A stretch of DNA of 64,000 bases from Flavobacteriales bacterium UBA6770 (lineage in GTDB: Bacteria > Bacteroidota > Bacteroidia > Flavobacteriales_G > Salibacteraceae), in NCBI GenBank assembly GCA_905181875.1, contig CAJIZH010000003.1, forward strand, positions 1,034,419 to 1,098,418. Direction: 5' to 3'. Each line of letters opens with the position of its first letter. The first letter of the stretch is position 1. The notes beneath the pieces are model-generated. The model was not told the DNA's origin, searched no databases, and saw nothing but the letters and a program-made list of their open reading frames with translations. The translations under genes and the position numbers were made by a program. Positions 56,183-61,939 of the stretch are shown piece after piece.

Positions 56183-56259
56183 GGGCCCATAGCTCAGTTG
56201 GTTAGAGCATCTGACTCATAATCAGAGGGTCGCAGGTTCGAGCCCTGCTGGGCCCACCA
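56183..56259 (+). tRNA. tRNA with anticodon CAT (Met, or Ile2 if lysidinylated); island integration site
   Basis: GGGCCCATAGCTCAGTTGG... folds into a complete cloverleaf with acceptor stem GGGCCCA/TGGGCCC, an anticodon loop CTCATAA giving CAT, T-arm GGTTCGAGCCC, and encoded CCA at 56257-56259. Identity as elongator Met or as Ile2 cannot be decided from the anticodon alone. The segment from the anticodon stem to the T-arm (56210-56242) recurs at 61849-61881 next to an integrase gene. Confidence 0.95.
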
Positions 56260-56267
56260 ATAGAAAT

Positions 56268-56298
56268 AGGGGTTTCAAGAAATTGAAGCCCCTTTTTT
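56268..56298 (+). terminator. Terminator of the tRNA-CAT gene
   Basis: Arms GGGGTTTCAA and TTGAAGCCCC (one G-T pair) around GAAA, followed by T6, 9 bases after the CCA. Confidence 0.85.
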
Positions 56299-56626
56299 AT
56301 TTCGGTTTAAACACAAGTTACATACAAAAGGGGACTAGGGTTAACTAATCTTGGTCTATTATGTTCTATTATCAATCAAACTGACCCGATTCTATTTTAA
56401 GAAACATTGATGCAATAATCCAAATAGACATGGTTATTTTGGTCTTTACGCAAAAATTTTGGAACAATTTCCTAAAAACAGAGGTTTAATTTATATTGCT
56501 ATTGAATATAAAATCAATTTCTAAAGATTTTTTGAAGTGAATATGAGGCTCGAAATGGTTTCTCGTATTCCTTTTGGGCAATTTTAATGTCTCCTTGGAA
56601 TAATTGTCACCTCACAAAATTGTCTT

Positions 56627-56821
56627 GACAAACCAACTAAAGATTCAGTTAATATAGAGGGTGACTTTACAAAACTGAGCGTAATTAATTCGTTTGGACA
56701 AGTTCTAAATATTAAGCAATCCAAGAAAACCAGCTGAGAAGGTTACCCATCAGGGGTCTACTATTTCATGTTTTCAAATGGAACTGATTCTATAGAAAAG
56801 CATGCGGTAACTAAGGAATAA
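56627..56821 (+). pseudogene. Remnant of a T9SS sorting domain
   Basis: One frame reads PTKDSVNIEGDFTKLSVINS, continues FGQVLN, has a TGA inside, then YPSGVYYFMFSNGTDSIEKH and stops at 56821. This is the pattern of a type A sorting domain (NPT...V..., then GxY). No upstream coding part survives: 56299-56626 shows only short frames. It is the tail of a lost secreted protein at the left end of the island. Confidence 0.6.
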
Positions 56822-56865
56822 TTGAACTTAGTTTAAATTCCAAAAGCTAATTCTACCTATCTCTC

Positions 56866-56924
56866 AAGATAAATGCTAACGGAACAACACAAGAGTTCAA
56901 GGTTTTTAAGGAGTGATTAAAGCC
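56866..56924 (+). repeat. 59-nt direct repeat, left copy (end of a T9SS gene)
   Basis: Identical except for one base to 59895-59953, which is the 3' end of the SBBP gene: codons for INANGTTQEFKVFKE, the stop, and 8 bases beyond. The left copy has no coding sequence in front of it, so it marks a duplicated and largely deleted copy of the same gene. Confidence 0.9.
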
Positions 56925-56991
56925 CTTAGTTACTAAGGTATAGTCGATCTTTATCTAACCTGAAATATTCATTTCAGTATCCTTTTGGTTA

Positions 56992-57036
56992 ACAAATAGG
57001 TAGTTTACCTAAAAAACACCTATTTCACCTATTTGT
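56992..57036. promoter_or_regulatory. 10-nt inverted repeat upstream of the SBBP gene
   Basis: ACAAATAGGT at 56992-57001 and ACCTATTTGT at 57027-57036 are exact reverse complements, 25 nt apart, ending 51 bases before the ATG at 57088. A second CACCTATTT copy lies at about 57017-57025. It may be an operator or an RNA hairpin; no TAnnTTTG box was identified here. Confidence 0.35.
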
Positions 57037-57873
57037 CTCGTAGTCACATCGATAAAAAGGTTTAATGTTGTTTAAAATCACATTGTTATGATTAAGAATT
57101 TACTCCTACTTTCTTGTTTTCTTACTGCTTCAATTTTAGAAGCTAACACGAATGAATTAGATAAGTTTAATTCTGCCAAAAGCACTATTAGCTTTACAGA
57201 GAACAAAGGTCAAATCAGCGACCAGAATTACAATCCACGACCAGATGTATTGTTTTCTGGAGAGGCAAATGGCTTAACCTTTCATATCAGAAACAACGGA
57301 GTGAGTTACCAAACCTCAAGAGTAGATTCTTGGAAACAGCAGGATGAAAACCTGCCTGAAGGAATGAGGGAAGAAGGAAAGACTGACTCAGTTCCTGACC
57401 AAATGACTATTTACAGAACGGATATTAACTGGTTAGGTTTCAATAGAGACTATACCATAGAAAACGGAGAATCAACTGCTGGATTCAATAACTACTACTT
57501 ACCTTCTTGTCCAGATGGGGCAATGAATGTAAAGTCATACACAGATGTAACGTTCAAAAACCTGTATACTGGTGTAGATGTAAAGTGGTATGAAAAGAAT
57601 GGAGAATTAGAATATGACTTTATAGTTGCTCCAAATACAGATTACACGAAGATTAGCTGGGAGATAAAAGGAGCTGATAGAATTTCAATTGGCGAAAACG
57701 GGCAGTTGATTATTGAAACGCCACTCGGCAATATAGAAGAGCAAGCGCCAATAGCATTTCAGGGAGAAACAATAGTAGAAGCTGCTTGGAAAATTGACGG
57801 CAACAAGATTAGTTTTCAATTAGGAAGCTATAATGAAAATGAAGTATTAATCATTGACCCAGTAGTAAGGCTT

Positions 57874-59220
57874 TGGGGAACTTATTACGGAGGGACAGGT
57901 ACTGATGCTGGCCAATCCTCCGCAACTGATGCCAGTGGAAACGTTTATCTAGCTGGGACTACTCAATCAACCTACTGGAATTGCCACAACAGGTGCTCAC
58001 CAAGACTCACTTGGGGAGGTGCTGATGCCTTTTTAGTAAAATTCAATTCTTCAGGAGTACGTCAATGGGGAACTTATTATGGAGGACAGGTGCTGATTAT
58101 GGACTTCCTGCGCTACTGATGCGAGTGGAAATGTTTATTTAGCTGGACGTACTCATCAACCACTGGAATTGCTACAACAGGCGCTCACCAAACTACATTT
58201 GGTGGAGGGTCCGGGGATGCCTTTTTAGTAAATTCAATTCAAGTGGAGTACGTCAATGGGGAACCTATTATGGAGGGACAGGTCGTGAAATGGCTATTCC
58301 TGCGCTACTGATGCGAGCGGAAATGTTTATCTATCTGGGGTTACTTCTCCATCCTCTGGAATTGCTACAACAGGCGCTCACCAAACTACATTTGGTGGGG
58401 GGTCCGGGGATGCCTTTTTAGTAAAATTCAATTCAAGTGGAGTAAGGCAATGGGGAACTTATTACGGAGGGACAGGGTTATGAGTCTGGCTATTCCTGCG
58501 CTACTGATGCGAGTGGAAACGTTTATCTCGCTGGGATGACTAATTCAACCACTAGGAATTGCTACAACAGGTGCTCACCAAACTACATTTGGAGGTTCTG
58601 GATGATGCCTTTTTAGTAAAATTCAATTCAAGTGGAGTACGGCAATGGGGAACCTATTATGGAGGGGCAGGGGTCGAAGATGGCTCTTCCTGCGCCACTG
58701 ATGCCAGTGGGAATGTTTATCTCTCAGGGTGGACTCCTTCAACCACGGAATTGCCACAACAGGTGCTCACCAAACTACATTTGGAGGTCGAAATGATGCC
58801 TTTTTAGTAAAATTCAATTCTGTTGGAGTACGTCAATGGGGAACCTATTATGGAGGAGTGGGTATAGATTTTGGTATGTCCTGCGCTACTGATGCCCTCG
58901 GAAATGTTTATCTATCTGGACAAACTCAATCCATTTTAGGAATTGCCACAACAGGTGCTCACCAAACTAATTATACCACCCTTATGGGAGCGATGAGCCT
59001 TTTTAGTGAAATTTAATTCCAATGGAATAAGGCAATGGGGGACTTATTATGGAGGATATATAATGAAAGGGGTCTTTCAATTGCTACTGATGTAAGTGGA
59101 GGTGTATATCTAGCAGGTTTCAATGTTAGTCTTAACCCAACCATCGCTGGTTCAACTGGATTTGCAACAATAGGAGCACAACAAACTGTGCATGCTGGAG
59201 GTGCGTGGGATGCCTTTTTA
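57874..59220 (+). repeat. Seven tandem 190-199 bp SBBP units
   Basis: The TGGGGAAC or TGGGGAC that begins each unit occurs at 57874, 58066, 58257, 58451, 58646, 58837 and 59036, spacings 192, 191, 194, 195, 191 and 199. A unit of 192 keeps frame, and the other spacings reflect one- or two-base gains and losses. Units are highly similar to one another, which favours recombination and assembly problems. Confidence 0.9.
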
Positions 59221-59261
59221 GTAAAATTTGATGCTTGTAATCCTGTTTATAATCAAGATTC

Positions 59262-59690
59262 TATAGTTGCTTGTGATAGCTATACTTGGATAGATGGGGT
59301 TACTTATACTTCAAATGATACCAGTGCAACAGACACCCTATTAAATTCAAATGGCTGTGATAGTATCGTTACACTAAACCTTACTATTAATTACACGAAA
59401 ACCTTCATAGATAGCATAGTTGCTTGTGATAGTTACACATGGATAGATGGGGTTACTTATACTTCGAGTGATACAACAGCAAAGGATACACTAGTAACTG
59501 CAGCTGGTTGTGATAGTATAGTTAGTCTTAATCTTACTATTAATTACACTAAAACAATAACTGACAGTATAGTATGCTAATGACAGTTATACTTGGATAA
59601 ACGGGGTTACTTATACTTCGAGTAATACTACTGCAACAGATACTTCTAGTAGCTTCAAATGGCTGTGATAGTATTGTTAGTCTTAATTTG
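59262..59690 (+). repeat. Three tandem repeats of about 146 bp (DSIVACDSYTW units)
   Basis: Copies begin near 59262, 59408 and 59554. Each encodes DSIVACDSYTWIDGVTYTS followed by a stretch ending GCDSIVxLNLTIN. The third copy is frameshifted at about 59570-59585, where GTTGCTTGTGAC has become GTATGCTAATGAC. Confidence 0.85.
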
Positions 59691-60255
59691 ACTATTGTAA
59701 GCACCGTTGGAATAGATAACCCAGCAATTTTAAGTAACGTAAAAGTGTATCCTAACCCTACAAATGGCAAGCTCACTATTGATGCTGAAAACTTTGAGGA
59801 TGTTGAGGTTTATGATACTTCAGGACGCTTAATTATTAAGTCAGCATTAAAGACCATTGACCTTGAAGAGCAGTCTAAAGGACTTTATCTATTGAAGATA
59901 AATGCTAACGGAACAACACAAGAGTTTAAGGTTTTTAAGGAGTGATTAAAGCCTTTAATTAGAGTTTCTAGTCTAGGTTATCTACATTGATTTTAATTGT
60001 CCTAAATCTCCCCTATTTTCCACTAGTGTCAGTGAGAAAATTATAAAGCATTGAGCTAGATTTTACCTATCTGTCAAATGTCTTTTTTAGTGCTAATAAA
60101 AACTAAAGTGTAGCACCACATTAAATAGGAAATTATTCTATAACAGGCTGTTATTCTCGTTTATGAGCACATCTTCCACATGTTAATTTAATAATTTCAT
60201 GACTTTTAAAAATTCTGTGGAATGATTGACAATAAACACCGAAAAAAATAGATTT

Positions 60256-60732
60256 ATGAAAAGAATTATGTTCTTCTTATGTGTGTTGTTTGTCACCCCT
60301 CTTTTGTATTCGCAAGAGACCATAACTACAGCAGGTGGAGAGGCTACAGGCAGTGGAACGGCCAGTTATTCTATAGGCCAAGTAGTATATAGTAATAATA
60401 CAGGCAGTAATGGCTCAGTAAGCCAAGGTGTGCAGCAAGCCTATACAATTGTGGATGTAGTTGATTTAGTTGGAGGATTAGCAACTATTAATCTTGAGTT
60501 AGCTGCCTATCCTAACCCAACAAATAATGCATTGACCCTTAACATTGGTAATTACAACAACCAAAACTTGACCTATCGATTGTGCGATATGCAAGGAAAA
60601 TTATTGAATAGTAGAAAAGTGAATAATAGTAGCACTGAAATTGGCATGCAAAATTTACCTGCAAGCACATATCTGTTAAATATAATAGACCAAGAGTCTT
60701 TAATCAAAACCTTTAGAATAATTAAAAATTAA
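60256..60732 (+). CDS. Small T9SS-secreted protein
   Basis: A 158 aa exported protein and the only unbroken cargo gene of the island. A signal peptide (MFFLCVLFVTPLLYSQ) is followed by a short Gly/Ser-rich region (GGEATGSGTASYSIGQVVYS and VSQGVQQAY) and a type A T9SS sorting domain from LAAYPNPTNNALTLNIGN to the end. Such proteins in Bacteroidota commonly precede a large tail-fibre-like surface protein gene; here the next gene starts 6 bases later but is truncated. The frame is open to 60226, but the ATG at 60256 starts the signal peptide. The 310 bases upstream hold no recognised feature. Confidence 0.78.
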   Translation: MKRIMFFLCVLFVTPLLYSQETITTAGGEATGSGTASYSIGQVVYSNNTGSNGSVSQGVQQAYTIVDVVDLVGGLATINLELAAYPNPTNNALTLNIGNYNNQNLTYRLCDMQGKLLNSRKVNNSSTEIGMQNLPASTYLLNIIDQESLIKTFRIIKN

Positions 60733-61772
60733 AACGCCATGAAAAAATTATACACACTTATAGCTTCAGTGGTAATAACGTTAACTGTTTTTGCACAAGC
60801 CTTCTGTAACTTGGTTAAAGACCCCGTCCTTTTAAATATATCTATCGCTCCTGTATGTCTGAAGGAGTAAAGTGTCTGATGCTCTTCCAGTATCTTAGAT
60901 TGTGCCTTATACTTACTCCAAAGGCTTTTAAAGTAGTCGATGTTGTATGGCTTTTTCTCTCCACTAAAGATGTTCCTACATTCCTCACCCTTGATTAATT
61001 TCTCTCTTATGCAAGCTGGAACAGGAACGATTCTATTCCTTCCAGATTTATTCCGATGCCCCGATAAATGAATTTGACTTAAGTCAGAGGAGAAGTCTCC
61101 CCAACATAGCTCTCTTATCTCTCTGTGTGGTCTTAAAAGACAACCATACGTGAACAAACAGCATAGGAATAGTTTATCGTTAAATCCCCTTATCTCATCC
61201 AATACAGGCCTTATTTCTCGGAAGGGTTTGTTTAGCTTGGCTTTGTTCTTTCTGCTCTTATTGCTGAGTAAATCTCTTGGCTCCATTCCCTTGCTTGCAG
61301 CAGCATTTAAAAGAGCGTGTAGGTGCCTTCTAAGGGTGTTATAGCTTGTTGCTGAGGTATATTTATTAAGGATAGAAGTAACGACTTCTAGGGTAATATT
61401 ACTGCCAATAGAGGCATCGACAATGTACCTGTATATATACTGTAATGTCTTCTTGTATTTATCCGAGTAATCCCCATTCAGCTTACTCTCTAAGGCCATA
61501 TTCAAATACTCTAGGTCTGATAGTTTACCTATCATAGCACTTTGCTTCCTAAAGGTTCTTAATACTCCTCCCTTGGAGATGTAATTATAGACCTCAGCGG
61601 CTAAGATATTCGCTTGTTGTAATCGCTGTGTCTCTGGGTAATCATTTGGATTTAGCTTGCTATTAATTCTCTTTCCATTATACAAGCGTATTTTCTTGTC
61701 GTTAATGTAAAATGAAATGAAGACTTTGTGGTCATTTGTTAGACCAATTTTAGGGTAGTTTATTAAATTCAT
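60729..61772 (-). pseudogene. Tyrosine recombinase (phage-type integrase), C-terminus lost
   Basis: Island integrase, 347 aa as an open frame. An N-terminal arm-binding region and a SAM-like core-binding domain (about 70-170) are followed by the catalytic domain with CLLRPHREIRELCW (first Arg), SGHRNKSGRNRIVPVP (Lys of the beta hairpin) and LYSFRHTGAIDIFKRTG (second Arg, with the usual first His as Tyr). After LTKLQKA, near base 60800, integrase sequence ends. The remaining 24 residues (CAKTVNVITTEAI...) are the antisense of the truncated surface-protein gene. The expected GHSS...TxxYL segment with the nucleophilic Tyr is absent. It reads inward from 77 bases inside the right att copy. Confidence 0.85.
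60739..60870 (+). pseudogene. Exported-protein gene cut off after its signal peptide
   Basis: The first 21 codons encode a clean signal peptide (KKLYTLIASVVITLTVFAQA). From about 60800 the sequence is the antisense of the integrase 3' region, so the following residues (FCNLVKDPV...) are meaningless and stop at 60868-60870. The position 6 bases behind a small T9SS gene fits an operon whose second gene has lost its body by deletion. Related signal peptides often precede tail-fibre-like surface proteins in this phylum, an inference only. Confidence 0.7.
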
Positions 61773-61848
61773 AGACAGTTATCAGACAGTTAATATTATT
61801 AAAACTGCATAACTAGTTCTCTACCAGTGGATTACTTTAAACATACAC

Positions 61849-61881
61849 TCTGACTCATAATCACAGGGTCGCAGGTTCGAG
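61849..61881 (+). repeat. Right attachment-site copy (tRNA-CAT 3' half)
   Basis: 33 nt matching 56210-56242 with one G-to-C change. The similarity goes on after a 4-base insertion through GCCCTACTGGGCT (to 61898), with a mismatch. The first half of a tRNA is missing, so it is not a functional gene but the displaced target left by integration. Confidence 0.85.
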
Positions 61882-61914
61882 GTGAGCCCTACTGGGCTTA
61901 AAGAATGAAAAAGA

Positions 61915-61939
61915 AGCTCCATTTGGAGTGCCTTTTTTT
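61915..61939 (+). terminator. Hairpin with T7 run behind the right att copy
   Basis: GCTCC-ATTT-GGAGTGC followed by seven T lies 17 bases after the tRNA-like remnant. The layout mirrors the terminator behind the intact tRNA, so this is probably the original tRNA terminator, displaced by integration. It may now help end the flavin reductase transcript from the other side. Confidence 0.55.

Follow-up and report, generated by a model that had tools for sequence, protein, structure and literature searches.

We analysed a 64,000-nucleotide stretch of Flavobacteriales bacterium UBA6770 (contig CAJIZH010000003.1, positions 1,034,419 to 1,098,418; hereafter the window), in which an island of about 5.6 kb, holding an integrase gene and genes for type IX secretion system (T9SS) substrates, lies inside a tRNA-Met(CAT) gene. 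We interpret this island as the dead remnant of a small tRNA-targeting integrative element that was subsequently truncated and, in part, overwritten by T9SS-protein DNA, a reading to which we give a probability of roughly 70%. In this scenario, a tyrosine recombinase would have targeted the anticodon arm of tRNA-Met and, on inserting the element, exchanged the 3′ half of the gene, so that the former 3′ end together with its terminator would have become the right site. The element would thereafter have lost its left end, including a helix-turn-helix (HTH) gene, sorting-domain DNA would have entered partly by copying within the genome, and an SBBP propeller gene would have arrived from outside the genus and then decayed. 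An earlier note on this DNA had proposed a tRNA-integrated island and, beyond that, integrases that spread or swap secreted surface proteins in this lineage; the island stands, and a specialisation of these integrases in T9SS surface proteins is not supported. The truncation of the integrase, the frameshifts in the SBBP gene and the origin of part of the cargo as a copy of a same-genome locus had gone unnoticed there.

The tRNA-Met(CAT) gene is intact at 56183-56259 on the forward strand (ARAGORN), and its 3′ part, 56210-56259, constitutes the left attachment site. The 33-nt tRNA repeat with one mismatch claimed previously is real (56210-56242 versus 61849-61881, repeat family D20). By eye, the right copy continues beyond it with a 4-nt insertion (GTGA), after which 12 more nt of homology follow as GCCCTACTGGGC; it thus extends to about 61898, giving a right attachment site at 61849-61898 on the forward strand. 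When the tRNA was searched against its own genome, this displaced copy was matched at E 1.9e-9. The island has an intact, regenerated tRNA gene, a displaced 3′ fragment in the same orientation and, within the interval, an integrase gene (60801-61772), which faces inward beside the right repeat as had been described. Terminator-like hairpins with T runs were read on the forward strand 3′ of the tRNA (56269-56298) and behind the right copy (61916-61939); the latter, of which G002 (see below) has a similar one, is likely the original tRNA terminator. Two copies of GACAGTT, 11 nt apart (61774-61791), are likely arm sites of the integrase, and such a pair also adjoins the intact integrases of relatives. 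The tRNA-Met of the window encodes its CCA end, whereas those of three relatives (G001, G002 and G003) do not, which fits a 3′ half brought in by the element.

An empty site and a differently filled site, the two observations that the earlier note had named as able to confirm the island, were both found in relatives. In G001, of the same genus, the order of HAD gene, tRNA-Met and flavin reductase gene is kept, the gap between tRNA and reductase gene is 186 nt, and there is no second tRNA piece. G002 and G012 carry other cargo at the HAD/tRNA-Met site. The contigs of G002 break within the site: on the reductase side a 23-nt exact tRNA piece is followed by a gene for a 149-aa protein with a weak DUF6567 match, and on the HAD/tRNA side stand, as judged by eye, the left-end signature of the element family and a 60-aa HTH-like open reading frame (ORF). 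G012, from another genus, holds a 16.7-kb element with a 50-nt exact repeat and an intact integrase. In G003, a second copy of the tRNA-Met 3′ end and terminator lies about 120 nt downstream (L069:10328-10522) without an integrase, and the flavin reductase gene is elsewhere in the genome; the duplicated tRNA end is possibly a scar. One site of a tRNA-targeting element in uncultured Flavobacteriales is thereby seen empty, differently filled, possibly scarred, and filled by a dead copy. The empty site of G001, the other cargo of G002 and G012 and, in the sister genus, exact repeats enclosing integrases of this family all support the attachment layout of a tRNA-integrated island.

The integrase belongs to a family that matched 7 of 42 genomes of the order at E≤1e-20 (the window's own genome included), 13 of 395 in a sample of the class at E≤1e-30, and 7 of 38 in the family of G102 at E≤1e-60. 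The integrases of the sister genus (G012, G019, G023, G048 and G049) are 95-99% identical to one another over the parts present; those of G012, G019 and G048 are about 64% identical to that of the window. Exact repeats bound the complete elements, with lengths of 50 nt in G012 (tRNA-Met), 52 nt in G019 and 47 nt in G048-C2 (both tRNA-Asn); further examples measure 49 nt in G102-C25 (tRNA-Met) and 46 nt in G080 (tRNA-Lys). All three sister-genus repeats start in the anticodon arm, at TGACT. The integrase has a tRNA or a piece of one beside it at 17 of the 20 loci examined, where G080 was counted through its 46-nt tRNA-Lys repeat (the motif match there is not its attachment site), G102-C25 and G312 through ARAGORN, and G353 and G144 by reading the sequence; the loci without such a piece are G278 (57 nt available), G435 and G441 (a relic with a guessed 5′ end). 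The island shares with the sister-genus elements the integrase homology and the position of the tRNA piece, which lies roughly 100 nt from where the integrase starts, as it does in most relatives.

At the left end, a signature following the tRNA is common to G012, G019, G048-C2 and G002, with an HTH gene in G012 and, by eye, in G019; neither was seen by eye in the 300 nt after the tRNA in the window. The left-end gene matched no PHROGs family, and its Pfam HTH_11 match stayed under the cut-off. The cargo of the family includes type I restriction-modification genes (G012), type I restriction-like ORFs (G048-C10, by eye), a SpoIIE-type phosphatase (G019), an IS1595 transposase (G048-C2) and McrBC (G144). 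The island resembles the sister-genus elements (G012, G019 and G048) in its integrase, its integrase-tRNA spacing and its GACAGTT pair, and shares the tRNA-Met site with G012, but it differs from them in their full-length integrases (G012, G019 and G048-C10), left-end HTH gene, exact repeats and other cargo, restriction-modification included. As side observations, pieces of additional copies of this integrase were located within or close to other elements (L064:7545-7637 in G019, L144:9188-9651 in G048-C10, and G012:C4:447893-448099), a sign of repeated insertion and decay. The 11,008-bp contig G144:C28 (L138) carries a family integrase, McrBC, a PrimPol-like primase and, at both ends, near-repeats of about 200 nt that hold a tRNA 3′ half; it could be a circle, a tandem array or a satellite-like element. 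We do not claim an excised circle, as the end repeats differ and no exact terminal overlap of 21-400 nt was found.

The window integrase is truncated. A 347-aa ORF on the reverse strand (60729-61772) matches integrases in PHROGs (phrog_1, E 1.2e-18) and no Pfam family at E≤0.001, the latter because its C-terminus is missing. Its alignment with the G012 and G019 integrases is good up to residue 324 and then collapses, so that integrase residues 1-324 occupy 60801-61772 on the reverse strand (alignment A1 with relatives, alignment with the XerC-like chain 4a8e, and phrog_1), and the rest of the ORF, down to 60729, is unrelated antisense DNA. When the G012 integrase is aligned with 4a8e, residue 328 corresponds to the conserved His and residue 337 to the catalytic Tyr, and the window copy has neither. 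The cut, at 60800/60801, is the exact end of a 678-bp copy of another locus of the same genome, on C1. Judged from its sequence, the element looks dead. Separately, in the HxxR motif of this integrase family the first His is replaced by Tyr (residue 302, aligned to the 4a8e His; L063:10007-11071, L064:9700-10764, window 60801-61772).

This organisation can be set against described systems. According to the Islander description (PMC4383910), tRNA islands have an intact tRNA at one end, a displaced same-orientation 3′ fragment at the other and an integrase inside, and anticodon-centred sites are one of the two site classes tabulated. The window's island agrees with these islands in all four respects, its site being anticodon-centred; in the same text they are putatively active with intact attachment sites, whereas the integrase of the window is truncated and its right site altered. 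The 10K genomic island of Riemerella anatipestifer, situated at tRNA-Arg, was shown to integrate and excise (PMC6764341). Like the window island it is small, lies beside a tRNA in a Flavobacteria-type host, and has one tyrosine integrase and direct repeats (53 bp in its case); it differs in tRNA, repeat and cargo, and in being active rather than dead-looking. Among the titles and abstract openings listed by a literature search, none described this site or a tRNA island with T9SS cargo, though such an account may still exist. We take the window island to belong, most likely, to a known kind of tRNA-Met element, in degenerate form.

The cargo is T9SS-related, as had been read from the sequence: an SBBP/DUF7948 gene, a small sorting-domain protein and sorting-domain relics. 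The absence of transfer, phage and defence genes was also borne out, in that no such Pfam family, and no conjugative transfer or phage structural family as expected of a conjugative element or prophage, was found in the five island ORFs scanned. From left to right on the forward strand, the island holds a T9SS sorting-domain relic at 56633-56728 (home-made sorting-domain hidden Markov model, E 5.8e-4); a second relic at 56866-56932 (repeat D15), consisting of a sorting-domain tail and the bases after it, which matches 59895-59961 at 96% identity and C3:5686-5752 at 97% (blastn); and the SBBP propeller/DUF7948 gene with a T9SS sorting domain at 57088-59945 (PF25778, E 5.5e-55; PF18962, E 6e-14). 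Two segments found by blastn follow, 59817-60197, 97.6% identical to C3:5608-5988 of the same genome, and 60123-60800, the 678-bp copy, 96.3% identical to C1:117389-118066. Within the latter lie an intact ORF for a small T9SS sorting-domain protein at 60256-60732 (PF18962, E 2.3e-11 on 60262-60732) and, at 60739-60800, the first 20 or so codons of a collagen-like adhesin gene. The C1 locus has the same small T9SS gene followed by the adhesin gene, there open.

The motifs of the SBBP gene change frame at least 14 times. Its N-terminal part found no match at E≤1e-30 in three congeners, while a gene of the sister genus (G047) is 84-86% identical to it in protein and 88% in DNA over 438 nt; the window's reductase has best matches of only 41-42% identity in G012 and G019. 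The combination points to horizontal acquisition, and on these comparisons the gene has probably moved horizontally. The G047 relative (L117:8942-10238) starts 395 nt after a transfer-messenger RNA (tmRNA) gene, and the contig ends inside it. Genes for tmRNA are common integration targets, and a tmRNA-targeting element is a conceivable carrier of the gene in G047. No integrase of the present family was found in G047 at E≤1e-20.

The main competitor of a remnant overwritten later is the reading of the earlier note, that the element came with the T9SS genes as its true cargo; a later deletion would then have fused the collagen-like adhesin gene to the integrase gene. We consider this improbable, though it has a case: the SBBP gene is missing from the three congeners at the above threshold and closely matched in the sister genus, which has intact integrases of this family, and the elements of G012, G019 and G048-C2 and the cargo side of G050 each have one sorting-domain gene. 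Against it, the block adjoining the integrase shares 96% identity with the C1 locus of this very genome, and the close SBBP relative in G047 follows a tmRNA gene in a genome without an integrase match. At 30 variable sites shared by the island, C1 and C24 of G001, compared without an outgroup, 16 unite the island with C1, 8 unite C1 with G001, and 6 unite the island with G001, a distribution that fits copying within this lineage. The direction, from C1 to the island, would follow from the intact adhesin gene in C1.

Sorting-domain counts speak to the same question. The genome itself has 94 sorting domains above the cut-off (of 99 rows) in 2.59 Mb, and G012, G019 and G048 have 98, 91 and 114 matches, respectively (counting every match at E≤0.001; the three genomes total 8.5 Mb in rounded sizes). 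Four sister-genus elements contain 3 sorting domains in 33.1 kb against 1.18 expected (P 0.12, not significant), and adding the cargo side of G050 gives 4 in 41.6 kb against 1.48 (P 0.06). The flanks of these elements, G050 included, contain 8 in about 64 kb, a count that takes in one weak match (E 0.003, G048-C2) and a G048-C10 flank that is partly a neighbouring element relic; element interiors are thus no richer than their surroundings. Outside the window's own family (G102, G278, G144, G435, G437, G343, G441, G080, G353 and G312), the cargo side showed no sorting domain inside the element or the stretch retrieved; these elements were left out of the density test, and the single match of G102-C25 falls outside the element. 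The counts inside elements, which do not differ significantly from genome background and flanks, do not support an integrase specialised in T9SS proteins. The proposal that integrases spread or swap such proteins here finds no support as a specialisation, given the lost catalytic end, the origin of 60123-60800 as a copy from C1, and the restriction genes carried by relatives. Spread of surface proteins by integrases in this lineage is kept as a possibility only by the SBBP gene and its probable horizontal acquisition. In genomes with one sorting domain per 25-31 kb or so, the presence of T9SS genes next to an integrase says little in favour of specialised transport. Beside a more distant integrase (42% identical) that adjoins tRNA-Arg(TCT) in G050 (L112:10392-13797), a T9SS sorting-domain gene ends 200 nt away, in convergent orientation.

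Several points weigh against the interpretation of the island as a dead, overwritten remnant. The 2 sorting domains that the window's own element holds within 4.5 kb exceed chance (P 0.012), although the element was picked for them; of the 6 own-family elements in which 3.7 kb or more of the interior could be seen, 5 have at least one sorting domain; and both observations leave a true T9SS cargo possible. The three-way site comparison lacks an outgroup, and the copying direction is deduced from the intact adhesin gene in C1. The attachment copy is imperfect, with one mismatch and a 4-nt insertion instead of an exact repeat. The duplicated tRNA end of G003 could be a tandem duplication rather than a scar. 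Finally, the SBBP frameshifts sit in near-identical repeats, and assembly error limited to these repeats could have produced them.

That last point underlies a second, equally doubtful alternative, in which the island arose as we propose and the SBBP gene is functional, its apparent frameshifts being assembly errors in 190-nt repeats. The frame changes do fall in near-identical repeats, yet a similar repeat gene in the same assembly (C1:138893-142390) stays open over hundreds of codons. General sequencing error was rejected as the cause, since in a control covering G001 ORFs with matches above 60% identity in window 40000-64000, all 14 compared, which lie outside the repeats, align in one frame.

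A third alternative, that no integrase acted here and that tandem or ectopic duplication produced the right tRNA copy, with the integrase gene unrelated to it, recalls the integrase-free second tRNA end of G003 but is very hard to sustain, since the shared integrase-tRNA spacing and the exact repeats bounding complete elements in relatives argue strongly against it, as does the empty site of G001.

More speculatively, the integrase family may read the anticodon arm rather than one particular tRNA. Such recognition would account for G048, in which near-identical integrases stand beside a tRNA-Met piece and a tRNA-Asn. Dead copies at tRNA genes might then be landing pads that receive copies of the host's T9SS sorting-domain genes, whose near-identical tails would let them be shuffled before they disappear again, an idea that we hold only tentatively. 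As an independent observation, the tail of one sorting-domain type and its 3′ flank form a dispersed repeat of 86-98% identical DNA (C1:107597-124106, C3:5608-5988, window 56866-56932 and 59817-60197). This tail is attached to unrelated bodies (nuclease-like, SBBP and repeat protein) and is also present in many relics, and recombination between T9SS genes could use it as a handle.

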